From Tubulanus polymorphus (lineage: Eukaryota; Nemertea; Palaeonemertea; Tubulaniformes; Tubulanidae), in contig NC_134025.1 of NCBI RefSeq assembly GCF_964204645.1, positions 23,776,001 to 23,840,000 of the forward strand: a DNA stretch of 64,000 nt, in the 5' to 3' direction. A program made the position numbers and the translations under genes. Below are positions 3,532 through 51,130 of the stretch, piece after piece. The notes under the pieces were generated by a model. It did not search any database. It had not been told where the DNA came from and saw nothing but the letters and a program-made list of their open reading frames with translations. Position 1 is the first letter of the stretch. Each line of letters begins with the position of its first letter.

Positions 3532-4724
3532 CTGGAAATATTCAGGACAAAACATTTGTTTCATCACATATGAATATCAGACATGATTTGATGGAGAACC
3601 CCAAGAAAATGTTAAATCAATACTAAACATATCAAAATAAACACAATGTTCAAATGAAGCTAAGAATTTTCATTAAAAAACTCTATATAAGGGAGGGTAC
3701 AAATAGTATGTATGGCCAATTTTGCTATTATTGAAGTGTTATGGTAGATTTACTGTAAGTTATTATCAAATCAGACAGTTTTTGACGTGTTTTAGGATAT
3801 ATCTCGTCCATAAAATAAATACATTTTTAAAGAGGCCGATGTGAGAAAAGTACATAGGTTCATTTTCGCGACCCCATAGGAAATTAACAAATTATTTTTT
3901 TCTCCAACGCCGAAATCGTATATACTATCTAAAACGCTCCCTTAATGAGTGATCAATTGATAATATGGAATTTTACTTGACTAAAAAGTCGAGCTATAGG
4001 GGGACAAGTTCTGTTTCAATACATCTTATGCACAATTTGTGGTACCATGAGGTTTAAGCTGCTACCTTACAAGTCTTACGCTCTAAACATCTATATCTTT
4101 AATACCCGATAACCAAGGTAACCAAATGATTCATAACGAACCAGTAGGAAGTCAAATCGTATAGCTTCAGCAACTCCGGAACCGCTGACCTTTTGATCTA
4201 CACAAAATTGGCTAGCATTAATTGCTGGTTCAGTCGAACATTTTTGTTTAAGAAAATTTATATTTAGCCATTGTGGTTGTTGTAACAAGTGGCCACAATT
4301 CTATACTTAATGGTATATTTCATTCTAGAAATTCTAAATCCATCTTTGAAAATGAATATATATATTCTGAGAGTTCTGTTGTCTGTAACAAATAAAGAAA
4401 GTAAGAATAAACGATCCGGCGACCTTTTACTGAAATTATGTACAAAATTGGCTACGAAATGGGCCCAGTAATAGTTGATAATGATTGGTAGCATCATCAT
4501 ATAGTCTTGATGCTCTAACCGTCAACCCTTAGACAAAGTATATAGCTTTTATAATACGTTGTCTCTGCGCCCCGCCTAACAACTGAAGATGTTCGGTAAT
4601 AAGCACAAAATTGGAATCCGCTGCATCAGCAAAGTAGCTGATTAACTAACATTAGTGAATACTATAAATTCCATACATAATTAACACACCCTCCAGGGTT
4701 ACACATTATACGTATGTATACATG

Positions 4725-4797
<73 letters not shown>

Positions 4798-4799
4798 TT

Positions 4800-4859
<60 letters not shown>

Positions 4860-7800
4860 ATAGATTTATATATAAATGATCAAAGCTTCATAAATAATAG
4901 GCAATTTTGTTCCTTGATTTAATCAATACTGAATATTTCCGAAATTCCTAGAATTATCGATTCGACTGCTGGAATTGAATATTCTCGAAACACCTGTTGT
5001 TAAAACGCATTTTATAACGCACTCGTGTTATAGAAGTGTTTACACTACAAGCAATTAATTGATTGATTATCTATATGGTTTTAACAACAATGACACTGCT
5101 GTGTATGCCCGCATATATCAATACATGCCCGATCAAAATTTTCCATATTATTCACAATCGATAGAATCTTTCTCGTCGGTGACAGGAATGCTTCGAAGGT
5201 GTTACAATATCCGTTAAGAAATTCGTTCTAGTCAATATGTTTTATATACCCACCTAATTTCTAAATATTTCTTATTGGTTAGATCCGTTTATGTCCCGAC
5301 CTGCCTTACTTGTTAATAACACTCTGATTAGCATCTGATGTATTTTAACTAATCTGTCGTCCAAACAAGTATAATTTTTGGCCACTGAGTAGACTATAAT
5401 TAAATACCACGACAGTTTATGCCCAGTGATCCTAGATAAAGCATGCATGCCTATATATACCCATAACTAATTCATTCTATTGAGAAAACATTTTTGTCCC
5501 AATAAATCCATTCTATCAAAAAATAACACAGATTTAGTATAAGTCCCGATCAATCTCTCACCTTTTCCGACTCGAGGCGACTTTTTGTTATAAGTTTATT
5601 AGGTTGAATGTTATCGAGGCAAACATACTGTTCACTATTATCAACGCTAGATGCTGATTTAATACTAGTTTTTTCCTCTTTGCCAACGCTACCAACAGCG
5701 CTACCTTTTCGACTACGGCTCTCGCCATCGGAACCGCTGTTATGATGGTTTCTGCAACTAGATACGTCTTTCCACTGTTCATTTTCGCTATTGTCGTCGT
5801 CGACGTAGCCAGTCGATCCGGTTTCAGTTTTCGTGGAATCATTTATCGAGTCTTTTGGCCTCAATGTTACGGCCCATCCGTGTGGCGTGCCGTTACTCTC
5901 GACGCTGTCTCGCTTACCCAGAATGCCGCTGTCCGTGGCTGGACATTCGGGCGGATTAGGAACGCGCACTTCTCTGCGGTAAACGTTGCAATCTTCCAAA
6001 AAATTAATCGGTTTCGTTCGTTCCTCGCCGGGATTGCTCGCGTTCCGGTTATTGTTCGCCTCGTTCTGCTTTTGACGATCTTTCTTCTTCTTTTTGCGAA
6101 ACGAAATGTTGCGAATTTTGATATTGAACGGGTCGTGCTCCTGAACGGTCGAGTCGGCCGCGCTTCCCTCCATATCGATGACGACGACTCGTAAACTCTC
6201 TTCGATATAACGCCAGTAGTATATCAAACGTATGCGTACCCTTTACGCTTGGATAGAATAATCGAGCGCGTGAACGTTGTCGTTCAGTCACAGAATGAAA
6301 ATTATACTCCGGCTTGCCGATCAATAATCCATGAATTGATACAACATCATCTATAATTCTCGACTGGAGACGGCAATAATTACGAAACGTATTCCATACA
6401 GCGTCCAAATTAATTCCTTACTATTGATTATGTCTTATACGCGTGCCTGCTGCCTAGATCAAGACCGACGGCTATCCGCTAGACTTTCATCTACCCTACC
6501 TGACAAAAACCCTTTGTTCCTACAGGTCAGACACAAATATCCTATGTCAAACCTCTGCCTATTAGGCATATTTCGCTGTAAGGCGAATAGCTTCGAAATA
6601 TTCGCTATACGTATGATTCGTATGCACCATATGTGGCCACTACTCGACGCACGTACTGTTGACTACGTCATTTTGTCAGGGCGAAACCTCCAACTCCCCG
6701 GCACAACGATGTGAACTGCATGCACGCACGCGCGGATATATATGCTAACAACAATGATTTGTCACCTGGCGGATGGCATTAAATGTCAATAAAATTGTAC
6801 AATCGAATCTCATTTTGTTTACCAACATACACAACGTAATGCCACCCATACACTGAGGGTAATGTCAGTCAGTCATCAGTGATTTGTATGGTTAGCCTCA
6901 GGGTAGCACATGTATGTCTTTTATTTATAGATTTATGCGTGGATATGAAGAAATCAATACCACGCGTGCATCATAATCACTAATCGATATACAGGAAATT
7001 GAATCAGAAAAATATGAAACTGGCCGAAAACAACGTTTCTTTTTCATAATCACACATCATTAATAGACATTAATCCATATGAACATTCTGCATCAGGTAG
7101 ACATCAGTAAATATTGTATAAGACTGCCATCAATTTCATATCTCCAATCTTTATAGATTCAGTTATTAAATCCTCTTAAGAATCAATAAATTCCGAGCTT
7201 TTCAATGTTCACCGAGATCTGTCGCCATTTGTGATTCGATCCATTGTAGAAATATAGAACCGATGAAGCATCAGAGCGAGAGCAATTACTCAGTCAGAGT
7301 AAGAGTTAATTAATAAATGATTCAAGTACTATGGCCATTGTCACAGTTGGATTCATTCACAGTTATACGCGGGTGTTTCTACTTTATACATCCATTAGTT
7401 GAATACAGAAAATTCTCAGTTTTACTTGCAATTAATAGAGAAGTCACATGTAGAGCTACTTTGCGTTAACAAAACACTTGAACATTAGAATTGACATATA
7501 TAATGCACTAGACACCACCGATAGAAATTCAAACAATACACGTGAAAGCTTAATACATAATATCGAAATTCTTCCATGGCTGTTATTAAAATGACCCTGA
7601 GAAAATCTCTCGAAATAAGGGAGATAAAGACACTTGATAAAGAGGCCTAGTACACTACAGGCTATAGTCAAATAAACAAACGTTTTCCTAACTCATTATC
7701 AATTGAGTGGAATAAACACAAAGGTGAACTATTTTATCATGGTAAACCATTTCTCCTAATACCTATCTACGAACACTTGAAGGTTTAAAGAAAAATTCCC

Positions 7801-10800
7801 AAGTTTGAATAAAAGATTATTACCTAGCCTGCATGACTATGAGTGACATTTCATGCCTTTCTTCATTTCACACTTAATTGTGGCATTGCATTTGGAACGA
7901 TAGATAAACAGACACAAGATTTAATATTCAGAGTACCAAAGTTAAACTCACCTCATCATCATTGTCATCATCATCATTTTTCTCTTTACGTCTGCGATAT
8001 TTCACTTGTTCGGTTGTTGAAATTTCTTCTTTGTTCGATGATTCTTCTTTTACATGTATTTCCTCATTTTCCTCTACCGCATCGCGATGTCCAACATCAT
8101 CAGCAATTTCAACGGGTATTTTGGCATTTTCTTGCGCCGGTTTTTTGCAGGTCATTTCCGAAGCTATCGCAGCATTTTGTTGCTCGACAATTTTCGAAGA
8201 TTGAGTCGCTTCGACGTCTTCGGTTTTCGCGATCATAGGAACTGGTGCCGATACCGTTTTGAAATGACCGGCTTTTTTATGAATGTCGGCTAAATTCGAA
8301 CTCGTTTTCAGATGAGCCGCTTTGACCGTTTTCATACTCGGCGAATTCGAACTGTTTTTGCCGTAACCAGATGCCGACGCGTAAGCCGAAGATAATCTGA
8401 CCGTGTCCATGCCGTGATTCGATTCGTCGCTACTATCGGAATGTAATTCCACGTTGTCGAGCAAGCACAGCGCCGGAGGACAAGAAACATTCAACTGTTC
8501 AGATTCAGAAACATACTCCGGCTTATCGAGCTCCGACGCGCAAATTCCTGCAGATAACGCATCATCATTCGCGTGATATGTGATATCTAAATTCGCGATC
8601 TTCTTCTCCGTATCGAGCACCGAATTCGAACCGTTCGAAATCGCCAAATTGTAAAGTTCGGGGGCTACGTTATCATCATCAACTGCAGCGTCACTACCCT
8701 GCGAATTACCAGCGAGAAGCAACTGACTCAGATCGATATTTCTCTGCGAAACGAGATCCGGTTGCGGGTTAAGATTCGGGCGGATCGTATGGCTCGCTAA
8801 ATCCGGCGTGCTGTTGCTCGGGAATCGCGGATACGGCGGCGGAGGTTTCATGCATTCGTTCAACAACGTTTGCGTTATCATCGTTTCCGACGTGCTCAGC
8901 TGGTTCAACATTGCCTGATCGCGACGCCGCAATCCCGAGCAATTGTACGTCGGTTGCAATATCAAACTGCTGACGCGTTCGACCGGCCGACTCGGTACGT
9001 AGCCGTTCGCCGGTATCGTATGGGTCGGCGGAGCGTAAGCCGTCGTCTGCACGACGTATTCATAACCGGTCGGATGGTGAATAAACGGTGTCGAGTAAAC
9101 CGGCTGCATGGTCTGAGCGACGTCCGGTTGGCTGTGATTTTGTAAGTAAACGTTCGAGACTCCCGTTGTGGAGATATCACCCATCGTTAAACTATGCGAT
9201 AGTTGTATATGATTTTGTTGTTGTTGTTGTTGTTGTAGGTGGCGTTGCAACATTACCGAATCGTAATCCGGGGCCGGTCGATACGCCGGTAAATTCGCGA
9301 GTCGCTGGCTGATGTTTTCCTGCGATCCGAGCACGACTTGACCCTGCGTTACGCTGTAAATACTGCCGCTTACATTATTCACGCTGCCATTGCTACTCGC
9401 TTCGATGTTGCGGACAGGTTGGGACGTTTCGAATTCGAAAACTGCGGACGGGTCAGCAGGCTGAGTGGTCACACCTAAAAGAGATACAATTAAAGTATCA
9501 CTGCATAAATTTACCTTTTCAATTAGTGATCAGTCAGTTTCCATAAGTCATTCTGATGCTTTTTTCACAGATATACCAATGAAGACGAAATATTTCAAGG
9601 ACAACACCCGCAATTTCTGTAAAATTTACAGATTTCTTCCAAAACAAGCCAACTCCTTTCTAATTTTCCCTACAGATCTGCATTGATCTCAGAAATGATC
9701 AAAATGAATCAAAAGTTCGGAAATCTGACTAGGGTCAGAAAATTTGTCATCCCTGTACACACAAATGAATTTGTGCTTACCTTGAGTCATGTAATGTATA
9801 TCCAGATTAGTATTTGGTTGCACACCTTCAACAACTGTAGGCTGCAAAATGAATGCTGACTGCAATGAACCTAAATTCTGTAAAACTTTATAGTATAATA
9901 CTACAATATTTTTTCATGTGATAAACATTAACATTGCTGACCTGAATCAGACAATGATAAAACAATTGCTCTCTAATTAACCCGATTTAGCATAGATGTA
10001 TTAAATTTCCATCCATTATCAGTGTTATTTAAAGCTAAATAGGCAGATTTTTACTTTCAGTACTTTTCAGTAATACACTGTGTATTGTAAATAATGGCCT
10101 GTATCTTCAAAGTATATAACATCTGATCTGATGGTGGAAGAATTCTGACAATCAACTGGATACAAGAAAATTTTAGTACATACCGATTCTTGGGCCGGAA
10201 TAGCGTTCTGAGCAATTCTTTGAATGTCCCTGTCGGAAATGAATAGTACATATGACATTACTACATGCATATAATTTTTTTTCATTTCACAAAATCTAAA
10301 ACCGACTCTATTTTTTACTAAATAAATTGATGAAGGCATATCAAGAGGAAAAGGTTATATGACCATGACCAATAGTGATAGAAATAGGGTCATCATAACC
10401 GATAAATGTAGATTTCATTTAATGTAACATGATTAAGATAACAATAAATAAACTTACGGAACTGCCCTTTTATCAGTATTACCAGTCATCTCAGCATTCG
10501 TTGAGGATGGCTCCACTTTCAGGCTGAAAAAAAAACAAGTTTATATCAAAAAGTTTATATCAAAGAGTTGTTATCACTTCACGAATTAACTTGATTCAAG
10601 TACCGGTACATTACATACAATTATATCCATCAGGGCCCAGTTTTATAGACTGGTATTCCAGGGGTTGAAAATGAATTGAGTCTATAAAACTGGGCCCTGA
10701 ATAAAGGTTTGAAATTCATCGTATGTCATACCTCGTATTGGATATGAGCGCACTCTGATCATCTCTGAAAAATTGATGTTGTAAAACACACATTCTCCAC

Positions 10801-12665
10801 ACGTACTTTGCGACCTCCGGATCATCCTTTAATTAAAAATCGATAACCATTATATCAACTGCATTATACAAGTCATGGAAATTCCGAGTTCTTCAACTGA
10901 TTTTCGCGCACCATATGTAAATTAACAGTCTGTTGGTCGAGGGCTGTCTGGATGCCAAATGTTTTCTTATTGTGTGTGAGGTGTCGTATATCTTGCCATC
11001 TAAAAACATTAAAGAATGAATTACCCAGTAATCAATGCGGAGGATAAAACAAAACTAACAAATGAATATTTCACTCATATAATCTTACTTGAAATAAAGT
11101 GTTGATTGTCCGGAGATTTGCTTCACAAATATGCCAGCAAACGAAGCCCCAATTATCAGATCATTGCCCGATTCATCCTGAAAATAAAATGACAAGTCTT
11201 AAACCCCGTGGCTTATTTGCATGTCTTGACTTGTCCAGAAGTTATGTTCAACCTAATGACTGGTCTAAGTTGATTTGAGGTTATTCATACAGTTGAATAG
11301 TATAATATGCGGAACAAATGCGGTATCAATTTTAGTTCCAGATATTCAGTCAATGACGACTTCTGCTGATTAAATCTTACCTTCGCAGGGTAACATTCAA
11401 CACCATATCCATCAAGTTGTTGCACCTCCAACAGATATTGTAACTCAGCAGCAGTCGGGTCGACGCCGTGTAAACTGCCATATGTGTGCAGTGTGCTTTC
11501 CAACAGTTCGTTCAGACTCTGCTCATCGCGACTTAGATTCTGGAGAGATAACAGTCCTCCGTTAGTCTCAGAGACTTTACAGTTTACTTTGAACTGAACA
11601 TATAATATCATATCAGAACATATCAAACTGAACATAACATATTACATTTTAGTCCATCCTTAAATCTCAAATTAAGACACACCCTTTTTAATAGCTTATT
11701 CTTAATTACTTTTTTATGTCTCACAGTTGTTTTACCATTTTTTTTTATTCATTGATCTATATTGTTTATGACAAAGAGCATATTCTATATGGGAAGATAT
11801 GACTCTAGCAACTATCTGAATGCACGCAATCCTGTTAAAATACTGTCGTCGCTGCAAATTGCAAATTTTACCTTTGGAAATGAGATGACTTGTTTATATT
11901 CTCCGACCCTCTCAGAGAGAAAATCACCGAAATCAGCTGAAATAGATTTATACAATTTTCAATCAACACGTTGTGATGTACTGCATCAAAGTAGACAATT
12001 AATTTTCTTGACAATGCTTGGCACTTAGGACGATAGCTCATAGTCTTAAGGACTCGTACCTTGAGCACTGTAGCTGGCTAATAAAACAGCGTGTTCTGGT
12101 GTACAAGGCAGTCTTCCTTCTATTACATCAGATTTCAACTGCAAATAGTAATAATACCTGAAAATGGAAAAACAAATTTTGAAAACCGAGCATTTTGATT
12201 TATAAAATTTTGACACAAGCATCAATTCTTCGATTCTTACCTGACCATCTCATCAGAGATATTGTGAACATCAGAAACGTAAAATGTTACACCAAAGAAC
12301 AGCGTCGGGGAGTGGTCATTTTTTTCCAGTTGTTTTTTCAATGGTTTATCAAGATCGGTCCAATGAAGACCAAGTTTCTTGTTGAAGTAACGTAGTCCGA
12401 AATATTGCAACTGAAAATATAAGTAGGTGTCCATACTTAATTGTACTAGACCAACGGCTATGGTACAGTTATCTCAATTTAATGGACCTACCTCGGACAA
12501 CTCGATTCTTGGTGCGATATTTTCGAGACATTCACGACCGGTACTTTCAGCGGTTAGAGTACATTCGATGACAGCATTGTCGAGCAGTCTAACACAGACA
12601 ACGTAGAGATTCTTCGAAGACACGTGATAGCGTCGTGTTCTCTTCAGGCGCAATTTAAACGGCAT
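958..12665 (-). CDS. ptpn14: FERM-domain non-receptor protein tyrosine phosphatase, PTPN14/PTPN21 (Pez) orthologue, 19 coding exons
   Basis: Minus-strand gene rebuilt from 19 exons; every junction has GT/AG and the phases add up to about 1402 residues with one stop (958-960). The start [19 protein letters not shown] and the end [10 protein letters not shown] closely match the ends of vertebrate PTPN14/PTPN21. Order: FERM about residues 20-312, long low-complexity linker 313-1071, phosphatase domain about 1120-1400. Known role of the family: cortical and junction-associated phosphatases that restrain YAP/Yorkie through PPxY motifs. The linker keeps a PPPPY motif (about 8830-8846) followed by STPDLASH, as in vertebrates. 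Vertebrate proteins are about 1180 residues; the excess is linker. An acceptor at 12683-12685, just upstream of the ATG, implies a separate non-coding first exon. The catalytic loop reads [10 protein letters not shown], with Ala where Ser/Thr is usual. Residue numbers depend on the exon 13 boundary. Confidence 0.96.
2545..2815. repeat. Dispersed repeat rich in TTCCCTGA words, inside Pez intron 15
   Basis: The phrases TTCCCTGACTTTT and TTCCCTGATTTT recur at least six times between 2575 and 2800, ending in GTGGCCACCCTGTATAAG next to exon 15. A similar TGTCCCTGA-rich stretch lies at 57745-57885, so this looks like a degenerate family of interspersed repeats. Confidence 0.5.
4722..4860. repeat. 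(TA)n microsatellite in Pez intron 13
   Basis: Nearly uninterrupted TA dinucleotides over about 135 bp, broken only near 4796-4810. The open frame through it (Tyr-Ile repeats) is an artefact of the repeat. Confidence 0.97.
5562..10523 (-). other. ptpn14: Pez exons 9-13: linker with PPxY motif and polyglutamine
   Basis: Exons 10458-10523, 10184-10229, 9781-9841, 7952-9474 (1523 nt) and 5562 to about 6140. The big exon carries [14 protein letters not shown] and KPPPPYPRF, both family-typical linker motifs, and a run of CAA/CAG glutamines near 9217-9240 (seen as TTG repeats on the plus strand). Exon 13 is lysine-rich near its start ([11 protein letters not shown], possible nuclear signal) and has no counterpart I recognise in vertebrate proteins. 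Its 5' limit is uncertain: phase-0 acceptors exist before 6140 (GTTCAG, best pyrimidine tract) and before 6197, and an in-frame ATG at 6173 could instead mark an internal promoter. Its donor at 5561 joins phase 0 to exon 14. Confidence 0.8.
10631..10699. mobile_element. Miniature foldback element in Pez intron 8
   Basis: A perfect 21-bp inverted repeat (10631-10651 and 10679-10699, outer word CAGGGCCCAG) flanks a 27-bp spacer. The GGGCCCAGTTT word recurs at about 28888 in this window, and GGGCCCAGTTTCATAAA-like words are common in marine invertebrate genomes (recalled, not checked). Most likely a tiny MITE-type insertion; as RNA it would form a long hairpin within the intron. Confidence 0.75.
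10732..12665 (-). other. ptpn14: Pez exons 1-8: FERM domain
   Basis: Coding exons in transcript order: 12492-12665, 12241-12410, 12060-12157, 11872-11936, 11381-11539, 11089-11177, 10912-10999 and 10732-10826. Phases at the ends are 0, 2, 1, 0, 0, 2, 0, 2, all consistent. Recognisable family segments include [56 protein letters not shown] and [20 protein letters not shown], matching the three FERM lobes of PTPN14 in order. The exon 7 donor is a GTG after ATG at 10912, chosen because it joins VNLHM to DDPEVAKYV in frame. Confidence 0.93.
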
Positions 12666-15505
12666 TGTAGTCTATCTCATTTCTGAAATAGCAAAAAAAG
12701 TCAGCAGAGACTGAGAAAGTGGCATTAAATTCATTTTAGTGTCACCAGGACTTATGATTACCACGGCACAGGTAGGTGATCTTACATATGATTAAGTTGG
12801 AGATCTTAAATCAAAGCTCTTCCCCCGCATCAGTGTCTTACACTTCGCAAAAAAAAAGGAACTTGCCCAGACTATTTTTATTCTCTCGCTCAGACAGTGG
12901 TTTTTTATCCAATAAAAAACGTTTGATTTCAAACATATTACCAATATCTAATTTTGCGAAAAACAAGTATTCCCAGATTACACCTACCCTGTATTACTGG
13001 CTATGATGACTCACTCGTGTGGATATTTAGTCTGAGACAAGAAATGATGATTAATTCTGAAAATTCCAAATATTTACAAGTGTTTTAGTATTAATTGTTG
13101 CCACTAGTCGTTGATTTGGCAGCACCTGCTGGAAGCATTTTTGAGCCCTCCTCTTTATAATTTGTCCCTCGTGTAGTATGGAAATGGCGCTTTCATTCAA
13201 GTTTTGCCAAGTTTTTTACGTCTCGGCTAGCTGCACAATATCAATGACTGATTCTAGTAGAGCCTTTTGAAGATGGATCCTTCTGATCTAGTAGATCACG
13301 TCACCTGGTCACGCAGTCACGGAACGGGCATCTTCATCTTCTGCTGCTTAGTCAAGTGCTTGGAAGTTCAAGTGCTTGGCCTTGGGCCCTTGTGGTGGCT
13401 CTGGCCGTCGTAGCCGTAGGCGTAGGGCCTGTGTACGGGTACGAGTGCCTTTACATTCCACCCAACAAAAAAAACACTAAAAGTCCACTAAAATCGTCAG
13501 TGACGGTAAAGCTGAAAACCAAAGGAGCAGAGATGAGCCGCATCCACGGCAGCCTCGGTCTATAGAGAGCCAAGAAGGCGAAGGTGGAAGGGGCAGTAAT
13601 CAGTTTTGGAAATGATCTCTTTTTGAGCTCCAGATTGCAATAAATAGCATGCCTAAGGCTTAGACATAAAAAAATTTCGCATCTCCCCCAAAAATTTGGT
13701 CCTTGTCTGACCACTCAAAAATTCATGGCTACCACGATACTATCCCCACAAACATTTCCAGAAGAGCTGGTCTACCCTCTTTTTGCTTCAAGTGTTTGCC
13801 TTGTTGGGGATATGAATATCATGCTCTTTTCAAGATCTTTACCCCTGTAATAGGATATAATACTATGTACCTACAACTTAAATCTACCCCTGAGTCAGAA
13901 GTTCGGGCCAAAATGAAATGGCACTTGTAGGCCTTCCTAGAATGCAGGAAATGCTTTAGATCCGCCCCACTCAATCTAGTCTATTGGTGTCAGCTGAATA
14001 CAATTTTTTTAGTTGCATAAAGCGTAGCACATTTGAGCTTCACAAATTACAGCCAATTTTCTAGCTTGTATATGCTCGTACAATATCCTCTCCTATTGTC
14101 AGCGCTATAACTTTCACCTGATTTTTGAAGTCGTCGTGATCTTGTTTTGAATTCTTTTCACCAAAAAGCTAGTAGCGAGACAATCGTTCGAATTTAGAAC
14201 TGGCAGCGAACCGGTATAAGTGTATATAGACAGTTGACACTAATAGTCTGTGATTATTCTATTTTCACAGGCATACATCAGCAAATAACATGCATTGATC
14301 TCGATGTGCATATCCAAAAAGTTTTTTTTTTCGGATGTCTTGATCTCGTTAGCCTGTGGTAAGTAAAATTGTGTGTTAAGTCATTGAAAGTTGATGTATT
14401 ATGATGATATTAGATGATTCTTTGACATTTGATATCTGATCCTATTTCATTTCTAGCTATTGTTGACCACTTGTCCACCATAAATAAGTCAAGAAGTGTC
14501 GACCTGTATAAGTGGATCCTACTGTGTAAGCATTCGTATAGAAAGAATTTCTATTTGCTTTGTGGGGGTTATTTTTCAAATCTTTATCGCTAATATCGAT
14601 GATCAAATTTCAATTTTCAATCATAAGATTATCTTATTCCGATATATATGCAAAGAAAAGTGAAACTATGATTGAAACCCTATGATTCAATTAACTTTTA
14701 AATTTCACCTCGGGTAACTTCTCTAATAGAAAAAAAGATGCATTCAGATATATAATTGGAATCTCTCGGTATTTTTCAAAGTTATTTTCTAGGTTATGCT
14801 CAAATGATTCGCATTAGATAGTCAAGTATAGTTGAGCTATTGAAATTTAATAGGCCTGCACTGAACAAAAAATCTCCCCATGAGGTTCAAGTCATTTGTC
14901 AAAGTATTTTTTGCTTTACTAGATATTCTTTGAATTCACTTTGGATTAGATCAAAGCTTTTCATTTTCTAATGATTACCGGTATATACTATACTGTATAC
15001 TATAAACCTAAATCTAGACTTTGCAATTAAACAGATTTTAGATAGAGATCCCAGTCCCTAAGCTCTGATTGCTTAATCCACACTTCAAATGATATAGGCC
15101 TACGCGAAAATCTATATTTTTCCTAAATGCTATTTATCTACTTCAAATTTTTCAGAAGACATGAATATATCTAGATTCAATATGTATTTTTTGTTGTGTG
15201 ATAGAAACTAATTTGAATGATACTTATAATACATATTTATATATTCAGTACGCAAATGAATTAATAAGCCATATACAGTACGCAAATGAATTAATACGCC
15301 ATTAATTATTTCTGAATAGGTTTTCTCAAAGCAAATTATCGAGCCATACGTCATTGATTGCCACTTGCCACTGTGTGGTTAAGTTATATTTAAGTGTTGT
15401 ACGTGTGTCCTTATTAAAAGCTCGCCTCTTAACAGGATTTATTAGCTCGAGTACCAAAGCCATGAAATAAGTCATCTAAATCCAGGTGATTAGATATCTA
15501 TTTGT
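12666..15505. other. Intergenic region between divergent genes
   Basis: Lies between the Pez start (minus) and the SAM/RA gene (plus), so both promoters and their non-coding first exons should be here. No coding exon is supported. A 46-codon frame from ATG 13273 and a GTG-started hydrophobic frame at 13356-13565 show no family resemblance. A tandem 30-bp duplication sits at 15246-15303. Confidence 0.5.
15246..15303. repeat. Direct duplication of about 30 bp
   Basis: CAGTACGCAAATGAATTAAT occurs twice, 30 bp apart, with one base difference in the trailing part (AAGCCAT versus ACGCCAT). ATGCAAAT-like octamers (CGCAAATGAAT) are part of it, but function is unknown. Confidence 0.8.
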
Positions 15506-18500
15506 ATGTTTTTAGATGAATTTTCAATGATGTTCTCCAAACAGGAACTGGATGGTCATCCAGTTGAGAACTGGACGGTGAATGATGTACAAAAGTGGAT
15601 GCTATCAGTCAGTCTTCAATCTGTTAAACACATATTTGTCAGTAAGTTCAACCACATTATTTGCACAGTGCCTTTTTGTAAGTTGGATTAGGATGAATTA
15701 TCATTATCTTTAGATGAATGAACTTTAATGAACATTACGTAATCTTTTTTAGGCTATGGCATTGATGGGAAAACTTTGCTTTCAATTGATAGAGAATTCC
15801 TAGGTAATTTATAGAGTTTAGAAACAAAACGCACTGAGAGGATTTTTGACCATACTGTGCAAGCCTTTTAACTAACAACTGATCTGATTGAGAGGTTTTA
15901 TAAAGTGGTTTAAGGGGTCTAAACGGATTTAAGCAATGATACACTTACTTAGCTTAAACAGTAATAACTAGAAGTATTATATTGTTGAACTAAGAATGAC
16001 TATGTATAAGTGTGGCGGCATGAAACAATCATAAATGCATATTTGCACATGCACAAGGTCTATGTGGAGGTATATTTCATTTCATGATCATATATACGTA
16101 CAGGTCAGCTATTTTATTTTTCAGGGCAACGTGGAATTTACGAAAGAGACTTGCAGACGAAAATTCTTAGCGCTATTTATGAGGTTAAAGTTGCCCATGG
16201 AGAAAGTAATACGAAATTGAACTTTTCTCTGAGGGATTCAAGTAGACTGCGTATAGAAACTGCTGCTGCGTCGAAACAACAGCCTGTCTCTATGGCTACG
16301 AAAAATCTAATTCAGCCTGATTTGAAAGAAAAGACGATAGAAATGCCTGTTAATTCAGAAGATATTGACGATTTGGATAATGAACAGAATTGTGTTTTGG
16401 ATAAGAACCAGAATAACATAAATAAATCAGTGGAGTCTCTCGATATGGACGTATTGAACTGTAATAACAAACTACATGATCCGATTGCTGAGAATTACTT
16501 GGATATTTCTCATGCGGTGTCTTTGGATTGCTTGCGCGATACTCAAGAGGTTAATTGCGATTTATCACGTTTCTCAGCATCAGCTGACGTTCTTTCATGT
16601 GATAGCGCTGAAGTTGCTGGCGAAAACTTTGTCGTGAACGAAGAAAATACTCCTAGTGAAAGTATTCGAAACAATAATGAAGATAAACATGGACTTGGTG
16701 ATTCAAGTACTGTAGAACTGGACACAAAAAAGAAAACAACTGATAAATCTGAAGAAAGTAACTTTATCTCAGACGCATCCAATTCGGTTATAGATGGGTC
16801 GTTACAGCCGCCGGACAACTGTAATTCTGATGAAATTGAAGTAAGTGCTTAATTAACTAATATAGAGAATCCAACTCTTATATAACGAGAAAGATGACGT
16901 CCGAACAGTTTCCTTTAAGCTAATGATTTATTGATTGGACATTTTAACTATACCCTATAGACATCTTCAGGAATACTGAGTCCTCAGAAACTTTTAACAC
17001 TTATCTTTCCATGGACTCTAAAACAAAGTACATGATCTCTCATTATAGAAATGTGGGATCCTCTATATATCATCTCAACACAGACATATTGTTTCATCAA
17101 TGGTTTAATTAGCTTACTTATAGTATCCTCTGAAGACCATTTTTTCAGAAGATTGTAAATAATTTTGGTAAAAACTTTTAATTAGTCAAGAATTTTAGTT
17201 AATTTTGCGTTATTGAAATTACTGATTTACTCTATTGATATACTTACCAATAGAGCATAGATAACAGTTAGGACTCACAATGAACGCCTTAATTGGTAAT
17301 TATCAACTGGGGTAAATCCTTATCTATGATTGCAAATTATTATTTTAATTATAGGCAGTGTAGTTCTATAGGCTGTACAGCTAAACAAACCCTATTGTTT
17401 GCTAGCAATTCGTCACAGGCGACCGAGTCTCGTGCGCTCGAGATCATAAAAGCCAGTACTGCTTACAAAGCATAGTTTGGCATGAGTCCTGCAAATCTTG
17501 ACAAGCGTGTTTTAACGTATTGAATCACAAGTGTCCAATTGTCACTGTACATATATACGCGACACATTGTAATTCCCGCATGCAACCCGGCAATTTAGCT
17601 TATAGTAGATTTGGAAGCTCAAAAAGTTATGTAACAGTGTTTAATACTGGTGACCGTATAAGGCTACAGATATACTTATATCTTGAGAAGTTAGTAGGAT
17701 ATACTACGTACAAATATGGCAAAGGATAAAGATAAAATCTTTGTAAGTAAATTAAATATATTACATTGTTAACTGATATTATAGGTCTCAATATGTATAC
17801 CATATATACACAGGCATGTTTTAAACTACAAAGTCATATCAACTTATTTAATTTGGTTGATGCTTATTGTTTGGTCCTGATCCGTCTATTCGCATAAGCA
17901 TATGTGACAATGACAATGAACAATGGTGGGAGCATTTTTTGTATCCCTCTACTACTATCTCTACAATTCATAGCACAAGTCAGATATATATGCATAGTCA
18001 TAGGCGTGTTATGAATCGCAATATGCTTATCGCAGTTATTGATTAGAACCATATTGAGGTTAATATATAAATTCTTTCGAATTAATGAAAATAACTTGGC
18101 TAGATTATAAGACAAGTCAAATAGGGCTGTACTTGTCATATTGATGTTTGCCCCATCTATTATTCAGTACAGATAGAAATTCTGAAACATGGAAAATTTG
18201 ATTGAGACGATGGCTTCAGATAATAAGTATTTTTCCTGATTCGTGTGTTGATAACCCATCTTCACTTGGACTGCTTGCCCTGGGCGATACGTATTTATTG
18301 GCGGACTACTGTAAATGTTGGATGGGTTTTTCCATATCAAGATATGCTTCCTTTCAAGGAAAAAGAAATGAAGGTGTAACATGGCTCTTGAAAACGTTTT
18401 CTATGCTTATCGCCCATTATCCGTCTGAAAATTGAGGCAAGCGAAATAATAAAGCTTGCTTGTCAAAATAATGTTGCCATAACAAGCCTTATGAAATCAG

Positions 18501-21500
18501 ATTAATCTTAAGATAACGTACAGCTATTCATGTTATTTCTTAAGATACGTACCAGCAAAAATATGTGATTCACGGTGTAGAAATATAACGGGGACTTATG
18601 ATAAAACTCTTATGGCTTCAATTTTTGTAGAACGTAGTTTAAGATGAATAAAGCAAGTTCTGCAGTAAAATTATCAAATTGGTTTAGTTTAAACCGAAGT
18701 ACTTATGAATGTAGATCAATTGATTGGGCATGAGCCAAAATGTCTGCTATCACGTTGTTGTAGTATTATGAGGTAAAACTCGATACCTGAGGTATTTATT
18801 AATCATATATATTATATTTCATTTAGCATATGTTCATGCGGGAAAATATTTGAAAATTTTTTATTGGATGAAAAATCATCGGAACTAAACAGTATGCACG
18901 TCTATAAGCAAGCTAACTCTTTGATAAAAGATAGTAAACTGGTCAACTTTTAGAAAAAGCTAGCCTGAGCATATATATCTGGTTAACTATCGAAATGTTA
19001 TACCATTGACCAACTGCTGTATGTAATCACTAAATGTTCTGAATAATTGATAATAGTGCTCGGCGTGTTATTGCATTTGTTACTATGTCTTGATCTCGAT
19101 GAATAATTCAGTGTGATATTTTATTATGGTCGTAGGGCTCAATTCAGGTTGATGGAAGCATCCTGTCATCGGATCTACACACGAGAACGTTCGTTATATC
19201 GAATAAAACCACTGCCAAAGAGCTGATCAGTCTTGTGCTGACCAAGTACAACATGGCCAGCCGCGATCCAAACCTGTTTTATCTCACAATGGAAACAAGC
19301 AGTAAAAATACTGGTAAGGAGTTATGTACCTGGTCATAGCAGTCGAGAAGTTTGGGCTAGCTTCTATTTTGAAAAGACCTCACATCTCTGCTCGAACTCT
19401 CATTCTTGACAAGAGCTATACGAAATATTTTCTTGTTAGACCTTGACTTTTTGTATACACTTTGCTGCATTTCCGTGACAATCCATATTTCTTTTGCTTA
19501 ATTATTGTAGAGAAACCAATTCAAAGTGTGGTTACGATAGGTGAAATGAGCTGTCCATTGGACATCCAACTTAACAACAACAAAGATACAAAGTGAGTTA
19601 TATCAGAATTAAATTGCCCTTTTAAGGTAAATTAGAAAATGTTGATGATGATTTACGTATCTTTTACAGGTTTTGTATTCAGATGAAAAGTGGAGGCTTA
19701 GTAAAAGTGTATGACAGTTGTCTGACACCAGGGGTAAATTTCCGATTTTGGTTTATAATGAAAAATGTGTCTTATGAAACGCTTTTAGGCTAGAAAAAGT
19801 GTTACCTTGTTGCTCGTAATCGGCTGGGTCACTGGTTAACTGCAATAAAATTTGTAATCAGTTCATTTCTGTCGGGTCTATCATTGTTAGCTTGATCATG
19901 ATTTGGAAAAAAAGTTATGCATAGGGTACAGGTCAACTTTTAAGCTTGGCAAAAATGAGAAACAAGGTATCAATTTATTTTTGTCATATTCATTTAAGAT
20001 TGTTAAATGTCAAATTTTTAATATCGATTGCAGTCATTCTATAAAAGTATGTTCATATCAAAGAAAACCACATCTAGAGAGCTGATCAAATTGTTGTTAC
20101 ATTATTACAAATCTCGAGAATACGTAGATGACTTTGTCTTGATGGAAACCGATGACCAAGGAAATGGTGAGTAATAGGAATTATGTGCTGCTACATCAAG
20201 GTCGGGACTGAAATCTTTTGTGATTTATGCTCAGTTGAAGCATCAAACCTGGTACCCAGGTGAGACCTGAATATGACTACTATTTGGGAGTTTAGTTTCT
20301 ACTCCCAAAAATATCCACCCTCAAAATCATAATAATCTCTAACACAGTTCATTTTCAATTAATCTACTATTTTTTAATGTGAAATTACTCTTATTCTTTG
20401 TGAAAACTACAATGAGAGATATCAGGTTGTCCAGTCTCTCAGGTATAAATGATTAGATTGTCATGGCAATTGAATGCGGACATTTTTAAATTCACCCTCT
20501 TAAGTCCAATCAGCTTAGTTGCATTAGCAAATATGATACAGTGTTTGCAATAAGCAAATAGTCACATATTTGATATTGAATATCATATATTTATGTGGTT
20601 ATGTGGGAAATTGGTGGTAAAATTTAGAAATTTTCAATAGAATAGGGCATGCTTTCCTACTTTTCCTATTTTCCAATTTAAAAAGTTCTCCTGATCCTTA
20701 CTTTTTATTTTTTCACATCTTTCCTAAAAAAATCCTATTTTTCTTCTATTTCTGATGGTACAGGTGTCATCACACTGTCAATCATCTTTCTGCAAAAGCC
20801 CTACATTGACAAGGATTCAGCCACTGAATCAGCATTCTTGAATTCTGTTAGCTTGACAAGCATCAACAGCCTTTTGGTTGATGACCGGTCAAGAGTGCCT
20901 TCAATGCATAATCCTGATCAAGTAAAGGTATCAGCAGTGGCAGATTCAGGGGAATTCCTGGGTGTCTGGAGTTAAAGAATGATATCAGAGACCCCAGATG
21001 TCCCTAAAAACAATGCACTTTGGGCATTCAGCAACTTAGAAAAATAAATTCCTTATTTTCCTCATACTATGATTCAAAAGGTGTATGCCTGTAGAAATGA
21101 AGAAGATATGTGTTGTTCCCGTCAGCGTACTGAGAGTAATTGTTATTTGGACCCCTTCTGTTTTGTACAACAGTATGAATTATTAGATTCAGTTTCGGAA
21201 TTAACCATTGGCTTATGTCCAAAGAAAAAGCCTACATTTGTATAAAATAATCAAGCAGTCATTGTTTCCTAGCCACAAAAGCCCTCGTGCGAATCTTAAC
21301 TGAGGCATGGTTTAGTGACCACATTCAAATGCTATTTATAAGGTTGTGGCTTATTGAAACAAATGTATCAATCACCTTGCTCTTTATGTGTAGCAGTACT
21401 GCAAGGAAAAACAAGACATAACAAATGTGTTTAGCCTATGTATTTCGCAAAGATCTTATGTTTTGATGTATAGTGTTTATAAAAATTCACATTTCGTTTT

Positions 21501-24500
21501 AGAATTAAGGAGATTGTCGGAGAGTGAATGCCCTCTTATTACTCAGCAGAGATGGAAGTCAGAAAAATGTTTTCAGCTCAAAAGAATTGGTAAAAAGAGT
21601 AATTCGGTGAGTTTGGCTTATTGAAATTCAACATTATGTATGATTTGATTTAGATATTGGATAGATTTTATGTGAAATGATGAGCGGTGACATCAAGGAA
21701 CTTCGATATACAATTTCTTATGTACAATGTAAAAAGCAAGCTACACCACCGTAACAGTATTCTAATTGGTCTCCAGCATAGTCTAAAAAGCATTCTACGT
21801 ATACTATTTTTTCATACCCCATGTTGTTTTATTTTCGACTATCAAGTAATTAGAATGTGGCCCTATATACTGTCTTGCATTTTGAGTTGGGTTATTCAAG
21901 GGATTAAACGTATAACATCATCAGTGTTTGATTAAGGATTGTTAGATCAACAAAATTTTGTTCACATACGTCCATGTGTTTTATTCATGTACAAACTTGT
22001 CTAAATCCAAACAGGTATGTAAATTACAATGTTTGGGTGTTGTTGGCAATTCATTTCAAACTTTTGTGCTTAATTTTAGGTTCAGCGATCACGCAGTTTT
22101 GGGGGAGTATCTGAACACGGTAGAGAACACTTGCAAGCTGCTTTAAAAAGATCAGCTCAAAGAGTAAGTGATGAATTTCTCATTAGATGTTTTTAGGCAT
22201 GTATTTTTGGGCAGGTGCCAATGCAAAACAAAAGATTTCAAATCAAACAGTTTTGAACATAAGCATTGGCTCAAATTTTCACCGTCAAATATTTATTGCT
22301 AAACGAATCAAATACTTTTATTCAAACATTAAATCCTATACACTATTCACAACTATTTCTTTTGTTTAAATTATGTATTGCGTTTACAAATGGTCCCGGT
22401 GTCTGCTGGAACAAGCCATATGGGTAGACCTATCGCTGAGATTCCATAGAATTGGGTCACAAAGTGTGAAGTTGACGATCAATGTACAGTACTGTCATAG
22501 TCGTTGATTTTCAAACAATATGCCAATTGAACAGCACTGCAGGACAGTGATTTAGTTCATGTTCGAGTAATATAACTCTTGTCTTATTTATGAATACAAG
22601 ATCGTTTACTGCAGTTGAGAGTGTTAATATTTATTTCTGTTTATGCTGTTCTTCAGAGAAAGCAACGCTCCAATTTTCTCGGAGTCGAAGAAAATACAGT
22701 GCCATCGGATGAAAGAAATGATCAAATAGAAAAATTACGTGGCAGTTTATTGCAACTCCAACAAGATAAGAACAGTGTATTCTTCAGTAGTCAGCAGGCT
22801 GTAAAACCAACGATTGATACAGCGCCGAGGGATCTACTCCGCGAGAAGATTGAGAATTTCAAGAACATTAGGTCAAGTTTCCAAAAAACAAAAACAGACA
22901 ATACTAAACGTGAAATAGAATCTAAAGCGAAGCCAGAACCAAGTTCGGTTGTCAAGGAAGAAGCAAGGGTGAATACCGATTCGAAAAATTTGAATGACGA
23001 TGAATTATTGCAACAGTCAATAAAGGAACGTAAAGTAAAATTGGAAGAAACATTACGAGCACGATCAGCGAAGGCACGCTTCGTAAAGATATCTGAAAAC
23101 GATGAAGGCATGAACGCCGAATTGCCTGAACACGTTCATTATAAGAAAGAGCAGCCCGATAAAGTTGATAGGAAACAGAATAAGCGATACAACACTATAC
23201 CAGGAGATTCAGTAGACGATCCAAAAAAGGTCTTGGATATACAAGAATTTAAAGGTCGGATATCTGAAAAATTGTACTCATTGAGCAGACAGTCATCAAA
23301 AAAGAAAACAAATCAAGTTGCTGGCGACGATTCTAGTGAAATTACCAATAAACTGACTGGTAGATCAGATGAGATAAACACGGAATCTGAAATACAACCA
23401 GCAAGCATGTCGAATGTTGCAACCACAATCTCGGAACATGAACTGAAAGCCAAAGAGAATTCAATTAAAGAAGTTTTAGCTGAAGAAAAAGCGAAGCTTT
23501 TGAAGGCAGTTAGTCATGGTTCTGCTACCCAACAGGGTACTTCTGTGGCAAACCGATACAAACCAAAATCAGTATCTCTGAGCAAAAGCAATGCATCGAC
23601 TGATACAAAGCAACGATCGTTCTCATCTACTGGCAGTGAATCTCCCATCAAAACAGTTCAGTCTGAAATAATGAGTGCCAAAAATTTGAGAAACTTACGA
23701 ATGCCAGTTGCAGTGCGTCCAGTTCGAGCTGTAGCCAAAGAAAATACTGAAAATATGAGTAAATCTGCGGCAACTCCAAGAAACGATGGAGAGATAACCA
23801 AAGATGGATTGCTAAAATCATCTAGCGAGGCTGAAAATAGTAAAGCGAAACAACTGAAGGATAATGATGACTCAAAAGCAAAAGATGAAGCTGAATCAAA
23901 TAGACTTGGTGGTGCAGCTGCGTTATTACGTAAAAAGAAAGGACGGCGATGCTTGCCAACTATTCCTTTGAGTGCAGATTTAGAAGAGCGAAAGCGTCGC
24001 ATCGCAGAACATGCTCAAATAAAGCTTCGTGCTTATTCTAGTTCTCGAGCATCCTTAGCGAGCGTAGATGATGTCAGCGAAGCGAGTACATTAAAGAATA
24101 TCGATAATATAGAAAGTGAAGCTGAAAGCATTCCAGAGCAGTTTAACCTGGAAACGAAGAACAAGAAACAGCAGAAGAACTCGTTTACCAAACAACACAA
24201 TTCTGTTGCCGATTCCGTCAATGCCTGGCAGGAGAAAGCAATGGCCGAAGTCAAGGAAACCAGTGCATATGGGTATGAGTCTAAAACTAGTAATATCAGT
24301 CCAAAAGACAATCTACCAGCTTTATCTATAGACAACGAATGTGAAAGCATTCCGGAATATCTATTATCTCCATCCAATCCTGATGATGCATTGGATGGAT
24401 TTGTTTATGATGCGAATATATCTTTTGATTTCGAATCGGTTACATCCAGTCCGAGAGAGAGTAATAAAGGAAAACTTACGGTGTCAAAAAGTAACGGTTA

Positions 24501-27227
24501 TGAAAACAATATTGTTTCCGAACTGAAACTGGATTTAAAATGTGATAATGCTCAATGTTTATTATCTGATAGTAATGCAGGTTTATTATCTCGTTTTAGT
24601 GATAAACAACCATCTGCCGTTAGAGATTCCAGTGAAATGAACGATCAGACATCAGCATCCAAGGGAAGCGGGAGTTTTCCCAGAACTCCGGGAGATGGCC
24701 AGGATTCAAAAGGGACTATTCTTTATAAAGAATCGTTTGTGAAAAATCTCAATACAGAGTTTAAAAAAGGTCCTGTCCATAAGAAATCTACAGTGTCTAA
24801 TCCGCAGACAATCAAATCAACTATAAGTCGCATTGAAGAAAAAACTCAAAACGTACTTTTAAATTCACAGTCAAATGAAAGAAAGACTGATCTGGGTGCG
24901 AAATCCGTGGTTAGTTCGGAAAAACCTCATAGTTCTCTTAACCAAATGTCTCTAGTGTCCGAAAGACGGAAAGCTAGAACTAGAAGTACAGGGTCTGTGT
25001 CAAGCAGTCGACCAACTTCTAGTAAATCATCACTGAGTAGGTCAGCTAGTGTTAAAACAAACACAGTCGTACCACGACAAACTTTAGTTTCTAGGCAGAG
25101 CAACGTGAATATGCCTCAGAAAACACTTGGCAGACATCCATCTAATAATTCGTTATTAAGTGAATCCGAGACATCCGGTTTTGCTGATCAGGATTACAGT
25201 CACTCGTCTCGGTCATCGAAAGTAAGGAATACGCAAAACTTGAACCGGTTTGCCGATTACAGCCCGGAGCATTCGGTGAAAAGTTTCTCCGGATCAAATC
25301 GTGTACCGCAAAGCGCGCGTGAGCCGAAATCCTACACGTCGTTCTCAAATCCAGCTCCATTGTCTGCGCGAGATCCGCCTTCGAATGCCGCGCGCAAGAT
25401 AAGCAAGACGGGTCATTCGCAGGAAGAAATATTACAGGCGAAACAGGCTCTGTTGATGTATGCCGCTGAGCCGGTCACACCGCGATCGTCGAGTCGAATT
25501 CTAGCTATCTCTCCGCAAAAAAGTGCAAGTCGTAGTAACGGTGAAAATACTCCTCACAATCAGTCAATGTATCAACTGCGTATGACGCCCGATTCTGAAG
25601 CAGCAACTACACCTCATAATATGACATTTTCAACTCCTCAGATTGCGAAATATCCGAATAAGTCGGGAGAGAAAGGGCAGGAATTGGACATTAATCGAAA
25701 CGTCGAGTTGCAAAGAATACGGCCATCTCTTCACGATGTTGTGCGTACGTGTGATCTGTTTACGGTCGAAGTTACGAAAGGAAACTGTTCGAAATTTGGT
25801 ATGAAATTGTTCGAATCCGTGTTTATCGATGCCGGTGCATCTCCGAAACGCCAGTCGCTGAGATCGCCGAAGGGGAAACGTCCGATGATTGGCCAGAATA
25901 ATAGCGCTTTCAAGCGTGTTCGCACGAGCAGTGAAAGCGAAGTTAAGTCGATCATATCGATCGATTCAATTGAGGAAAATAGCGCAGCGCAACGCAATGG
26001 ACATTTACAAGAGGGGGATCATATAATCGAGATCGACGATAAATTTGTTCTCGAAGCTCACGTCGCAACAGCTCAAGCATACATTCAGAGAGCCGGAGAT
26101 GTACTGAAATTAGTGGTGGCGCGTATCAAGGGTGGAACATCTACGTCTAATTCTATATTGGAGGTAAGATTTTACATCCATTTATTCTGTTATTTAAAGA
26201 TATTTTCCATTACATCACTTAATTTCAGGAAAAATAATCGTTCTTGGTTGTTTGGGATAAGAATCAGGTTTCCTTCTTTATTGGTCATTAACCTGATATG
26301 AAATGTTTGAACTTAGGGGTATTCCAGGGTGCCTCAGTGTAATTGTGTGTCTTTCCAAAATTGAAGTTCTTTTCAAACTTCTTTTTTTGATATATACACA
26401 TATCGTGAATAGAAGTACTAGTGAAATATATGGAAATTCGCCCCAACCTATTACATATATGTGTGCACTCTCAATATTGTGATTGAATGAATGAATGAAA
26501 ATGAATTTACTCAGGCAATGAGCTTTGTATGATGAAATATATATATAAATTCTAAGTGTAAACACACGCAGTACAATTATCTCTGCAGCAAATAAAGTGC
26601 AGTTTTTCCAATCATATGAGAAGTATAGAATCATTCTATAAAATGAATTGGCATACATAGACCTGTTTATACAGTTCCCGGTCTTGTTTAGTTGCGTAGC
26701 TCTATGAAGCGACAATTAATGGTTGAGTGTATGTAAATCACACAATCACAATGATTCATACAACGCTATTTCCATAACAAGGGTTTCATAAAATATTCCT
26801 GTATATTTCATTAACCCTTAATTGATGCACAACTGGTATTTTTCATGATTTGAAAATCTGATTATGGAGGTATTTGATTCGTCATGGCCATTATACATGC
26901 CTACAATCACTCCTCATCAAGAAATAAAGAATGATAAGATACCCTTTACATAACTGATAAAAATGTATTCATAACTGTATTCATAAACATCATTTTTTTT
27001 TTCAGGGATCGAATCTGTCTGAACAATCATTTGATATCAGGGAAGAGAAAGATATGTTAAAACTGAAATACCAGAGTCTTATGTTAGAATCTCAACAGAA
27101 GGACAAACTTATTGAAGAACTACGCAGTATTATCGTGAAACGAGCTCAGGTTCGCCAAATCAAAGATGGAATGAAACCTTACAAACTGAACATCGATGAT
27201 CTGGAAGAAGAATGTTCTGCTGTGTAA
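15506..27227 (+). CDS. SAM-RA-RA-PDZ scaffold protein, family not recognised
   Basis: Eleven exons with matching phases give at least 1745 codons to the stop at 27225-27227. Order: SAM about residues 17-75; disordered acidic segment to 301; RA1 302-409; RA2 410-488; very long Ser/Lys-rich disordered region 517-1545; PDZ about 1548-1675 with a roughly 50-residue insert; short coiled coil; C-terminus EECSAV. RA domains bind Ras/Rap GTPases and PDZ/SAM mediate assembly, so a membrane-proximal Ras-effector scaffold is the inference. It recalls afadin/Canoe (RA-RA-FHA-DIL-PDZ), but I see no FHA or DIL. The start is uncertain: ATG 15506 is in frame, but a good acceptor (AAACAG) sits right before 15545, so the true first exon may lie upstream. 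Numbering assumes ATG 15506. Confidence 0.88.
15545..16840 (+). other. SAM domain exons and acidic linker
   Basis: Exons 15545-15641 (phase 0 to 1), 15753-15803 (phase 1 to 1) and 16125-16840 (phase 1 to 0). Together they read ENWTVNDVQKWMLSVSLQSV, then YGIDGKTLLSIDREFLG, then QRGIYERDLQTKILSAIYEV, the five-helix pattern of a SAM domain (VxxWL-like start, GIDGxxLL, LGI-like loop). The remainder of the third exon is acidic, low in hydrophobics and probably disordered. The donor of the first exon was set at GTAAGT (15642) because it restores the SAM reading. Confidence 0.85.
17716..17742 (+). other. Candidate alternative first coding exon (MAKDKDKIF)
   Basis: Inside the 2.3-kb intron before RA1, ATGGCAAAGGATAAAGAT starts a 9-codon frame ending in phase 0 exactly at a consensus donor GTAAGT (17743). 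The next exon (19136) is entered in phase 0, so a transcript starting here would encode MAKDKDKIF joined to RA1 and would lack SAM. A CATAAAAG box lies at about 17445, some 270 bp upstream. No transcript evidence is available. Confidence 0.45.
19136..19733 (+). other. First Ras-association domain (RA1) exons
   Basis: Exons 19136-19313, 19511-19592 and 19670-19733, phases 0-1, 1-2, 2-0. They encode TRTFVISNKTTAKELISLVL, then IGEMSCPLDIQLNNNKD and KFCIQMKSGG. This follows the RA/ubiquitin-like pattern: a beta hairpin, a helix after the TTAKEL turn, and the ECPLxIQ-type strand seen in RASSF, RalGDS and afadin RA domains. Confidence 0.85.
19787..19906. repeat. Dispersed repeat copy in an RA-gene intron
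   Basis: AGGCTAGAAAAAGTGTTACC to TTGATCATGATTTGG matches 43782-43901 (AGGCTAAAAATGATACC to TTAATCATGATTTT), sharing AAATTTGTAATCAGTT and CGGGTCT. One copy sits inside segment B copy 2 and the other 24 kb away in the intron after 19733. Confidence 0.75.
20034..21606 (+). other. Second Ras-association domain (RA2) exons
   Basis: Exons 20034-20166 (phase 0 to 1) and 21503-21606 (phase 1 to 0) give KSMFISKKTTSRELIKLLLH, METDDQGNE and LRRLSESECPLITQQRW. The LRRL-SESECPL segment is the classical RA strand. TTSREL matches TTAKEL of RA1, indicating an internal duplication. The open stretch at 20764-20935 between these exons does not fit in phase and was left out. Confidence 0.85.
22080..26163 (+). 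other. Short exon and 3.5-kb exon: disordered region and PDZ domain
   Basis: Exon 22080-22163 (28 codons) and exon 22657-26163 (1169 codons), both phase 0 at each end. The large exon is rich in Ser, Lys, Glu and Asn with basic Ser-Arg stretches (around 24960-25060), as in cytoskeletal scaffolds regulated by phosphorylation. Near its end, FTVEVTKG, FGMKLFES, then after an insert ISIDSIEENSAAQRNGHL, EGDHIIEIDD and GDVLKLVVARIKG form a PDZ domain. The carboxylate loop is FGMKL in place of GLGF, and the insert (about 25826-25950) is basic and Ser-rich. Confidence 0.82.
27006..27227 (+). other. Last coding exon: coiled coil and PDZ ligand
   Basis: 73 codons from acceptor TTTCAG (27005) to TAA. 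A heptad-like stretch (MLKLKYQSLMLESQQKDKL, then IEELRSIIV) predicts a short coiled coil, and the protein ends CSAV, which fits the class I PDZ ligand x-S/T-x-hydrophobic. Confidence 0.88.
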
Positions 27228-51045: not shown

Positions 51046-51130
51046 ATGAAGCCTCCGATTTTCTGAGCATTCCGTCGTTTGCTTAAGATTTCTGCTCGAA
51101 ACATCGAAAGAAACTGACGTCATTCCAACT
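51046..51130 (+). promoter_or_regulatory. 5' leader exon with a tiny upstream open reading frame
   Basis: The acceptor TCATTGCAG (ending 51045) is followed at once by ATGAAGCCTCCGATTTTCTGA, an upstream frame of six codons out of frame with the main start at 51131. Such a frame can lower translation of the main protein; this is inference. Confidence 0.5.

Follow-up and report, generated by a model that had tools for sequence, protein, structure and literature searches.

A predicted Tubulanus polymorphus gene combining SAM, tandem RA, and PDZ domains

Gene model and domain order

The stretch of DNA analyzed here (the window) comprises 64,000 nucleotides of the nemertean Tubulanus polymorphus (assembly GCF_964204645.1, contig NC_134025.1, positions 23,776,001 to 23,840,000) and contains a plus-strand gene predicted to encode a protein with a SAM domain, two tandem RA domains, and a PDZ domain (the SAM-RA-RA-PDZ gene). 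The limits given in the initial annotation, 15506–27227 on the plus strand, hold, with an ATG at 15506 and a stop codon ending at 27227. The spliced model has 11 exons and 10 introns, all with GT-AG borders and consistent phases, and yields 1,758 amino acids (aa) followed by a single terminal stop. Exon borders were set by eye and then verified computationally; the model is predicted from genomic DNA alone. Joining the exons and searching the product with hidden Markov models for SAM, RA, PDZ, FHA, and DIL domains, a check that the initial annotation had proposed, returned one SAM, two RA, and one PDZ domain in the order it had described. The Pfam scan (E up to 1; aa 1–516, exon 10, and aa 1545–1758) found no FHA, DIL, CRIC, PH, SH3, or ankyrin domains. 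The features are as follows (window coordinates).

15506..15641, +, exon 1: start methionine and first part of SAM; donor tca/gtaagt; a further upstream exon is possible
15753..15803, +, exon 2: middle of SAM (splice model)
16125..16840, +, exon 3: end of SAM and an acidic linker of ~210 aa, probably disordered (splice model, composition, codon usage)
19136..19313, +, exon 4: most of RA1 (splice model, Pfam)
19511..19592, +, exon 5: later part of RA1 (splice model)
19670..19733, +, exon 6: end of RA1 and start of RA2 (splice model)
20034..20166, +, exon 7: RA2 core (splice model)
21503..21606, +, exon 8: end of RA2 (splice model)
22080..22163, +, exon 9: start of the long linker (splice model)
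22657..26163, +, exon 10: linker of ~1,030 aa with low hydrophobicity, and PDZ (splice model, Pfam, composition)
27006..27227, +, exon 11: charged tail, possibly a coiled coil (by eye only), ending in EECSAV before the stop
15563..16186, +, SAM, spliced over exons 1–3: aa 20–83 (Pfam SAM_2, E 7e-9)
19136..19688, +, RA1, spliced: about aa 302–394 (Pfam, E 1.1e-11; the two RA domains scanned apart)
19695..21585, +, RA2, spliced: aa 397–481 (Pfam, E 2.6e-14; scanned likewise)
25753..26130, +, PDZ: about aa 1549–1674 (Pfam, E 2.9e-9, matching the later part of the domain, profile positions 24–80)

There is good evidence that the modeled exons are coding. The longest stop-free frame of the window (1,235 codons) holds exon 10, whereas order-2 Markov windows (n = 40) reached a maximum of 214 codons. 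A codon-usage model trained solely on exon 10 gave the spliced exons 1–9 a score of +0.10 per codon in the modeled frame. Among 2,000 draws from the 28–50 kb region of the window, each scored in its best plus frame, the highest value was −0.17; this region also supplied the background counts, and its own gene content was not checked. Of the plus-strand frames, the modeled one scored highest in each of the 11 exons (including exon 10, on which codon usage was trained); over all six frames it led in nine, with exons 2 and 6 narrowly beaten by a minus frame. Exon 7 joins exon 8 directly, which by eye gives a proper RA ending; a candidate exon at ~20771–20938 (beginning GVITLSIIFLQKPYIDKDSATES) was rejected by eye, since exon 8 would then be read out of frame.

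Relatives of the domains and genomic neighborhood

The two RA domains share 35% identity. Both carry the TT(A/S)(K/R)EL turn noted in the initial annotation (TTAKEL and TTSREL), but this turn is not a special signature, as other RA genes of the genome have TTAREV (L013) or MTAKEV (L012). A search of the PDB with the RA pair returned a total of four sequences (E ≤ 10), namely RADIL (listed as FLJ10324; E 7e-5), afadin (0.003; RA2 by our reading), RASIP1 (0.004), and, weakly, AFD-1 (0.42). A two-row RA profile gave seven matches: those four, ranked as before, plus two weak matches to PLC-epsilon and one unrelated chain.

Within the genome, a search with the RA family found eight matches: RA1 of the SAM-RA-RA-PDZ gene, RA1 and RA2 of afadin, and five others that were read as myosin IX, two RASSF-type genes, PLC-epsilon, and one without assignment (L012). 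Pairwise scores (400 shuffles) were highest between RA1 and RA2 (85) and between RA1 and afadin RA2 (79); the remaining pairs with RA1 or RA2 scored 19–50, where three of the other RA domains compared are exon pieces, which lowers their scores. A genome search with the RA pair yielded mostly its own exons (five of seven matches), together with afadin RA2 (E 7.7) and one more match (E 8.7), and thus no close paralogue of the pair; a scan of viral and prokaryote contigs with the same query found no relatives. By sequence, the RA pair is afadin-RA2-like, led by RA1.

A phase-1 donor lies in the loop after strand 3 in both RA domains of the gene (window 19313 and 20166) and in afadin RA1, and putative donors occur at the same loop position in L012 and L013; the intron of afadin RA2 lies elsewhere. 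The putative donors in L012 and L013 rule out this intron as proof of afadin descent. Its occurrence in five RA domains (window 19313 and 20166, L015, and, putatively, L012 and L013) suggests that it may be an ancient RA-domain intron.

The afadin gene of this genome is a separate gene on the same contig (C1:8.72–8.75 Mb, minus strand), with RA1 and RA2 identified by Pfam, a DIL domain (E 1.1e-23), and an FHA domain and the end of a PDZ domain read by eye. The SAM-RA-RA-PDZ gene is therefore not the afadin orthologue, which speaks against the possibility, raised in the initial annotation, that it might be a known afadin. The genome search for DIL gave three matches, one in afadin and two in fragments of a single C12 gene, read as myosin V; no additional RADIL-type DIL gene emerged from it. 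Neither Pfam nor this search found a DIL domain in the SAM-RA-RA-PDZ gene, and the search did recover the DIL of afadin. None of the 12 matches of the genome search for FHA fell in the gene, but this search missed afadin's own FHA as well. More generally, exon-by-exon genome searches overlooked the gene's own split SAM domain and own RA2 and the PDZ and FHA domains of afadin, so that absent matches are weak evidence. The afadin region also contains an open frame of ~2,830 codons between the PDZ exon and the C-terminal exons (C1:8733037–8724545, L024–L025). In fly canoe, according to one study, an alternative exon of 718 aa replaces the disordered region (PMC10399776).

The closest PDB relatives of the SAM domain are those of neurabin (E 2.2e-4), DGK-delta (2.6e-4), and Shank2 (1.3e-3). 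Among the SAM domains of the genome (20 of 24 matches compared; gene names are our own reading of the sequence), those of neurabin (88) and Shank (86) are nearest by raw score, whereas Z-scores reverse the order (Shank 16.9, neurabin 14.9, the neurabin alignment being partial).

RA2 and PDZ are separated by ~1,060 residues, close to the ~1,050 disordered residues of the initial annotation; this linker, which may be disordered, has a low hydrophobic content (0.21, compared with 0.30–0.44 in the SAM, RA, and PDZ domains). Two further features had escaped that annotation. The first is an insert of ~40 residues in the PDZ domain (about aa 1573–1612) after the FGMK turn; the borders of the insert and the N-terminal border of the domain were read by eye, as was the conserved K-F-G-M turn. 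This domain matches PDZ domains of InaD-like, ZO-1, and MUPP1 and is not specifically afadin-like. An unusually long loop is also described for the PDZ domain of Shank1 (PMC9068651). The second feature is the C-terminal tail, which ends in EECSAV. Its last three residues, SAV, follow the class-I pattern of PDZ ligands. In the PDZ domain, helix B starts with a valine (by eye), and by the usual rule for this position, the domain should not favor the protein's own SAV tail.

The SAM-RA-RA-PDZ gene lies head to head with a PTPN14/PTPN21-like gene (FERM and phosphatase, named by eye; window about 1163–12671, minus strand), two of whose large frames had no Pfam match. A codon-usage scan picked out a coding-like segment of 44 codons upstream of the SAM-RA-RA-PDZ gene (13481–13612, plus strand). 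Downstream follows a gene that we read as neurabin/spinophilin (window 51050–53449, plus strand), which continues past the window to about C1:23861000; its N-terminal exon lies in the window, followed by a split PDZ domain (C1:23848.5–23850.1 kb), a coiled coil, and a SAM domain (C1:23860380). Two genes with SAM and PDZ domains are thus close together. A local origin of the SAM domain from the neurabin gene is not clearly supported, as the Shank SAM is level with that of neurabin and has the higher Z-score. Seven of seven neighboring open frames matched no Pfam family, and one of these frames, searched against the PDB, likewise had no match. A search of the assembly for COX1 was also without a match, and the mitochondrial genome seems to be absent from it.

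Interpretation and alternatives

The domain mix is unusual, although each part is of a familiar kind. The initial annotation had called the combination unassignable to a named family. It indeed fits none of the named families that were compared, but the RA pair does have kin in afadin RA2 and in the RA domains of RADIL and RASIP1, so that an afadin-type RA pair with other domains appears to be nearer the mark. On balance, the locus is probably one animal gene encoding a multivalent scaffold that responds to Ras/Rap, with afadin-type tandem RA domains in a different domain setting, and the earlier reading as a Ras/Rap-effector scaffold is retained, by analogy, as the best guess.

This analogy rests on Canoe, in which both RA domains have micromolar affinity for active Rap1, and models pair the second RA strand with switch I (PMC11698047); by analogy, Rap1 or one of its relatives is the expected partner of the tandem domains of the SAM-RA-RA-PDZ protein. 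In its GTP-bound form, Rap1 or another Ras-family GTPase would dock on the tandem RA domains and bring the protein to a membrane or junction. There the SAM domain would self-associate or pair with another SAM protein, the PDZ domain would hold a membrane protein by its C-terminus, and a second PDZ scaffold would bind the SAV tail. Activation of the GTPase could in this way build a membrane–cytoskeleton patch, as afadin/Canoe does, without the shared FHA/DIL core. As a GTPase-linked scaffold the protein would thus act in the manner of afadin or Shank, although its domain content places it in neither family.

Several observations weigh against this reading. RA2 scores alike (43–50) with afadin RA1, afadin RA2, and the RA domains of myosin IX, a RASSF8-like gene, and PLC-epsilon; its score with afadin RA2 (48) is matched by 49–50 with three others, and the link to afadin therefore rests mainly on RA1 and the PDB search. 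A single-sequence fold of the PDZ domain, the only fold attempted, reached a pLDDT of 32.6. Moreover, PMC11698047 reports an earlier assay in which afadin RA2 lacking the N-terminal helix bound H-Ras very weakly and did not bind Rap1.

The strongest alternative, to which we give a slightly less than even chance, is that the gene belongs to an ordinary family of animal proteins that is already catalogued but unnamed and known from many invertebrates. Every domain is common, and absence from a partial literature proves little; nevertheless, no such protein is named among the matches listed in a full-text literature search of partial coverage with few terms, and the part of a review of Ras effectors that was available (PMC7915224) names none either. 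For fly CG12424, a possible SAM protein, the literature consulted yielded nothing on its domains. A 2024 paper, in its accessible text, calls Canoe/afadin unusual for its tandem RA domains and names PLC-epsilon beside it (PMC11698047), which also counts against such a family. More tentatively, the gene might add a third type to the tandem-RA proteins, next to afadin and PLC-epsilon. Tandem duplication of an afadin-RA2-type domain and its combination with SAM and PDZ domains would have given a SAM-clustered Rap effector that acts alongside afadin in this group of animals and that vertebrates may have lost.

The order of tandem RA domains followed by PDZ, the closeness of RA1 to afadin RA2, and the location of both genes on contig C1 would also fit a derived afadin paralogue that arose by duplication, with loss of FHA and DIL and gain of SAM, but we regard this as improbable. 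Least likely of all are two genes, one for a SAM protein (exons 1–3) and one for an RA-RA-PDZ protein whose first exon would lie in the 2.3-kb intron 3: this is the longest intron of the model, and the frame of exon 3, if continued beyond its donor, closes after three codons (stop at 16852), but the gtaagt donor of exon 3 and the acceptor of exon 4 are both in phase 0, the first ATG of exon 4 falls inside RA1, and intron 3 holds no open segment of at least 30 codons above the coding-score threshold. The predicted SAM-to-RA junction is based on the matching phases and on the need of exon 4 for a coding exon upstream.

If the SAM-RA-RA-PDZ gene does represent a second family with afadin-like tandem RA domains but no FHA/DIL core, it would help to separate the role of the RA pair from the rest of afadin, and it would add a possible Rap-controlled scaffold to the biology of animal junctions or synapses.

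Comparison with known systems

Ste50 and ARAP combine SAM with one RA domain, and ARAP also has PH, ArfGAP, and RhoGAP domains; by contrast, the protein described here has two RA domains and a PDZ domain, and GAP and PH domains were not found in it. PLC-epsilon likewise has two RA domains, but its catalytic (phospholipase) and RasGEF domains were not found here, and one PLC-epsilon RA piece scored 19 and 43 in the pairwise comparisons. CNK, which has the order SAM-CRIC-PDZ-PH, shares the N-terminal SAM and the PDZ domain; it differs in its CRIC and PH domains, not found here, and is not known to carry an RA domain.

Shank has a Ras/Rap-binding ubiquitin-like domain, ankyrin repeats, SH3, PDZ, a long disordered region, and a C-terminal SAM domain. 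The SAM-RA-RA-PDZ protein likewise unites putative Ras/Rap-binding modules with PDZ, SAM, and a long, probably disordered stretch, but the domain order differs and ankyrin repeats and SH3 were not found here; by our reading, the genome has a separate Shank gene (SAM at C1:25813316, L034). RADIL and RASIP1 carry one RA domain together with FHA-like and DIL domains, neither of which was found in the SAM-RA-RA-PDZ gene. The likeness lies in the RA sequence, and both are among the best matches with solved structures.

Compared with afadin/Canoe, the gene differs in the presence of SAM and of a C-terminus in the form of a PDZ ligand, and FHA and DIL were not found. It resembles afadin/Canoe in its tandem RA domains, with RA1 nearest to afadin RA2, in the PDZ domain further on, and in a very long stretch of low hydrophobicity.
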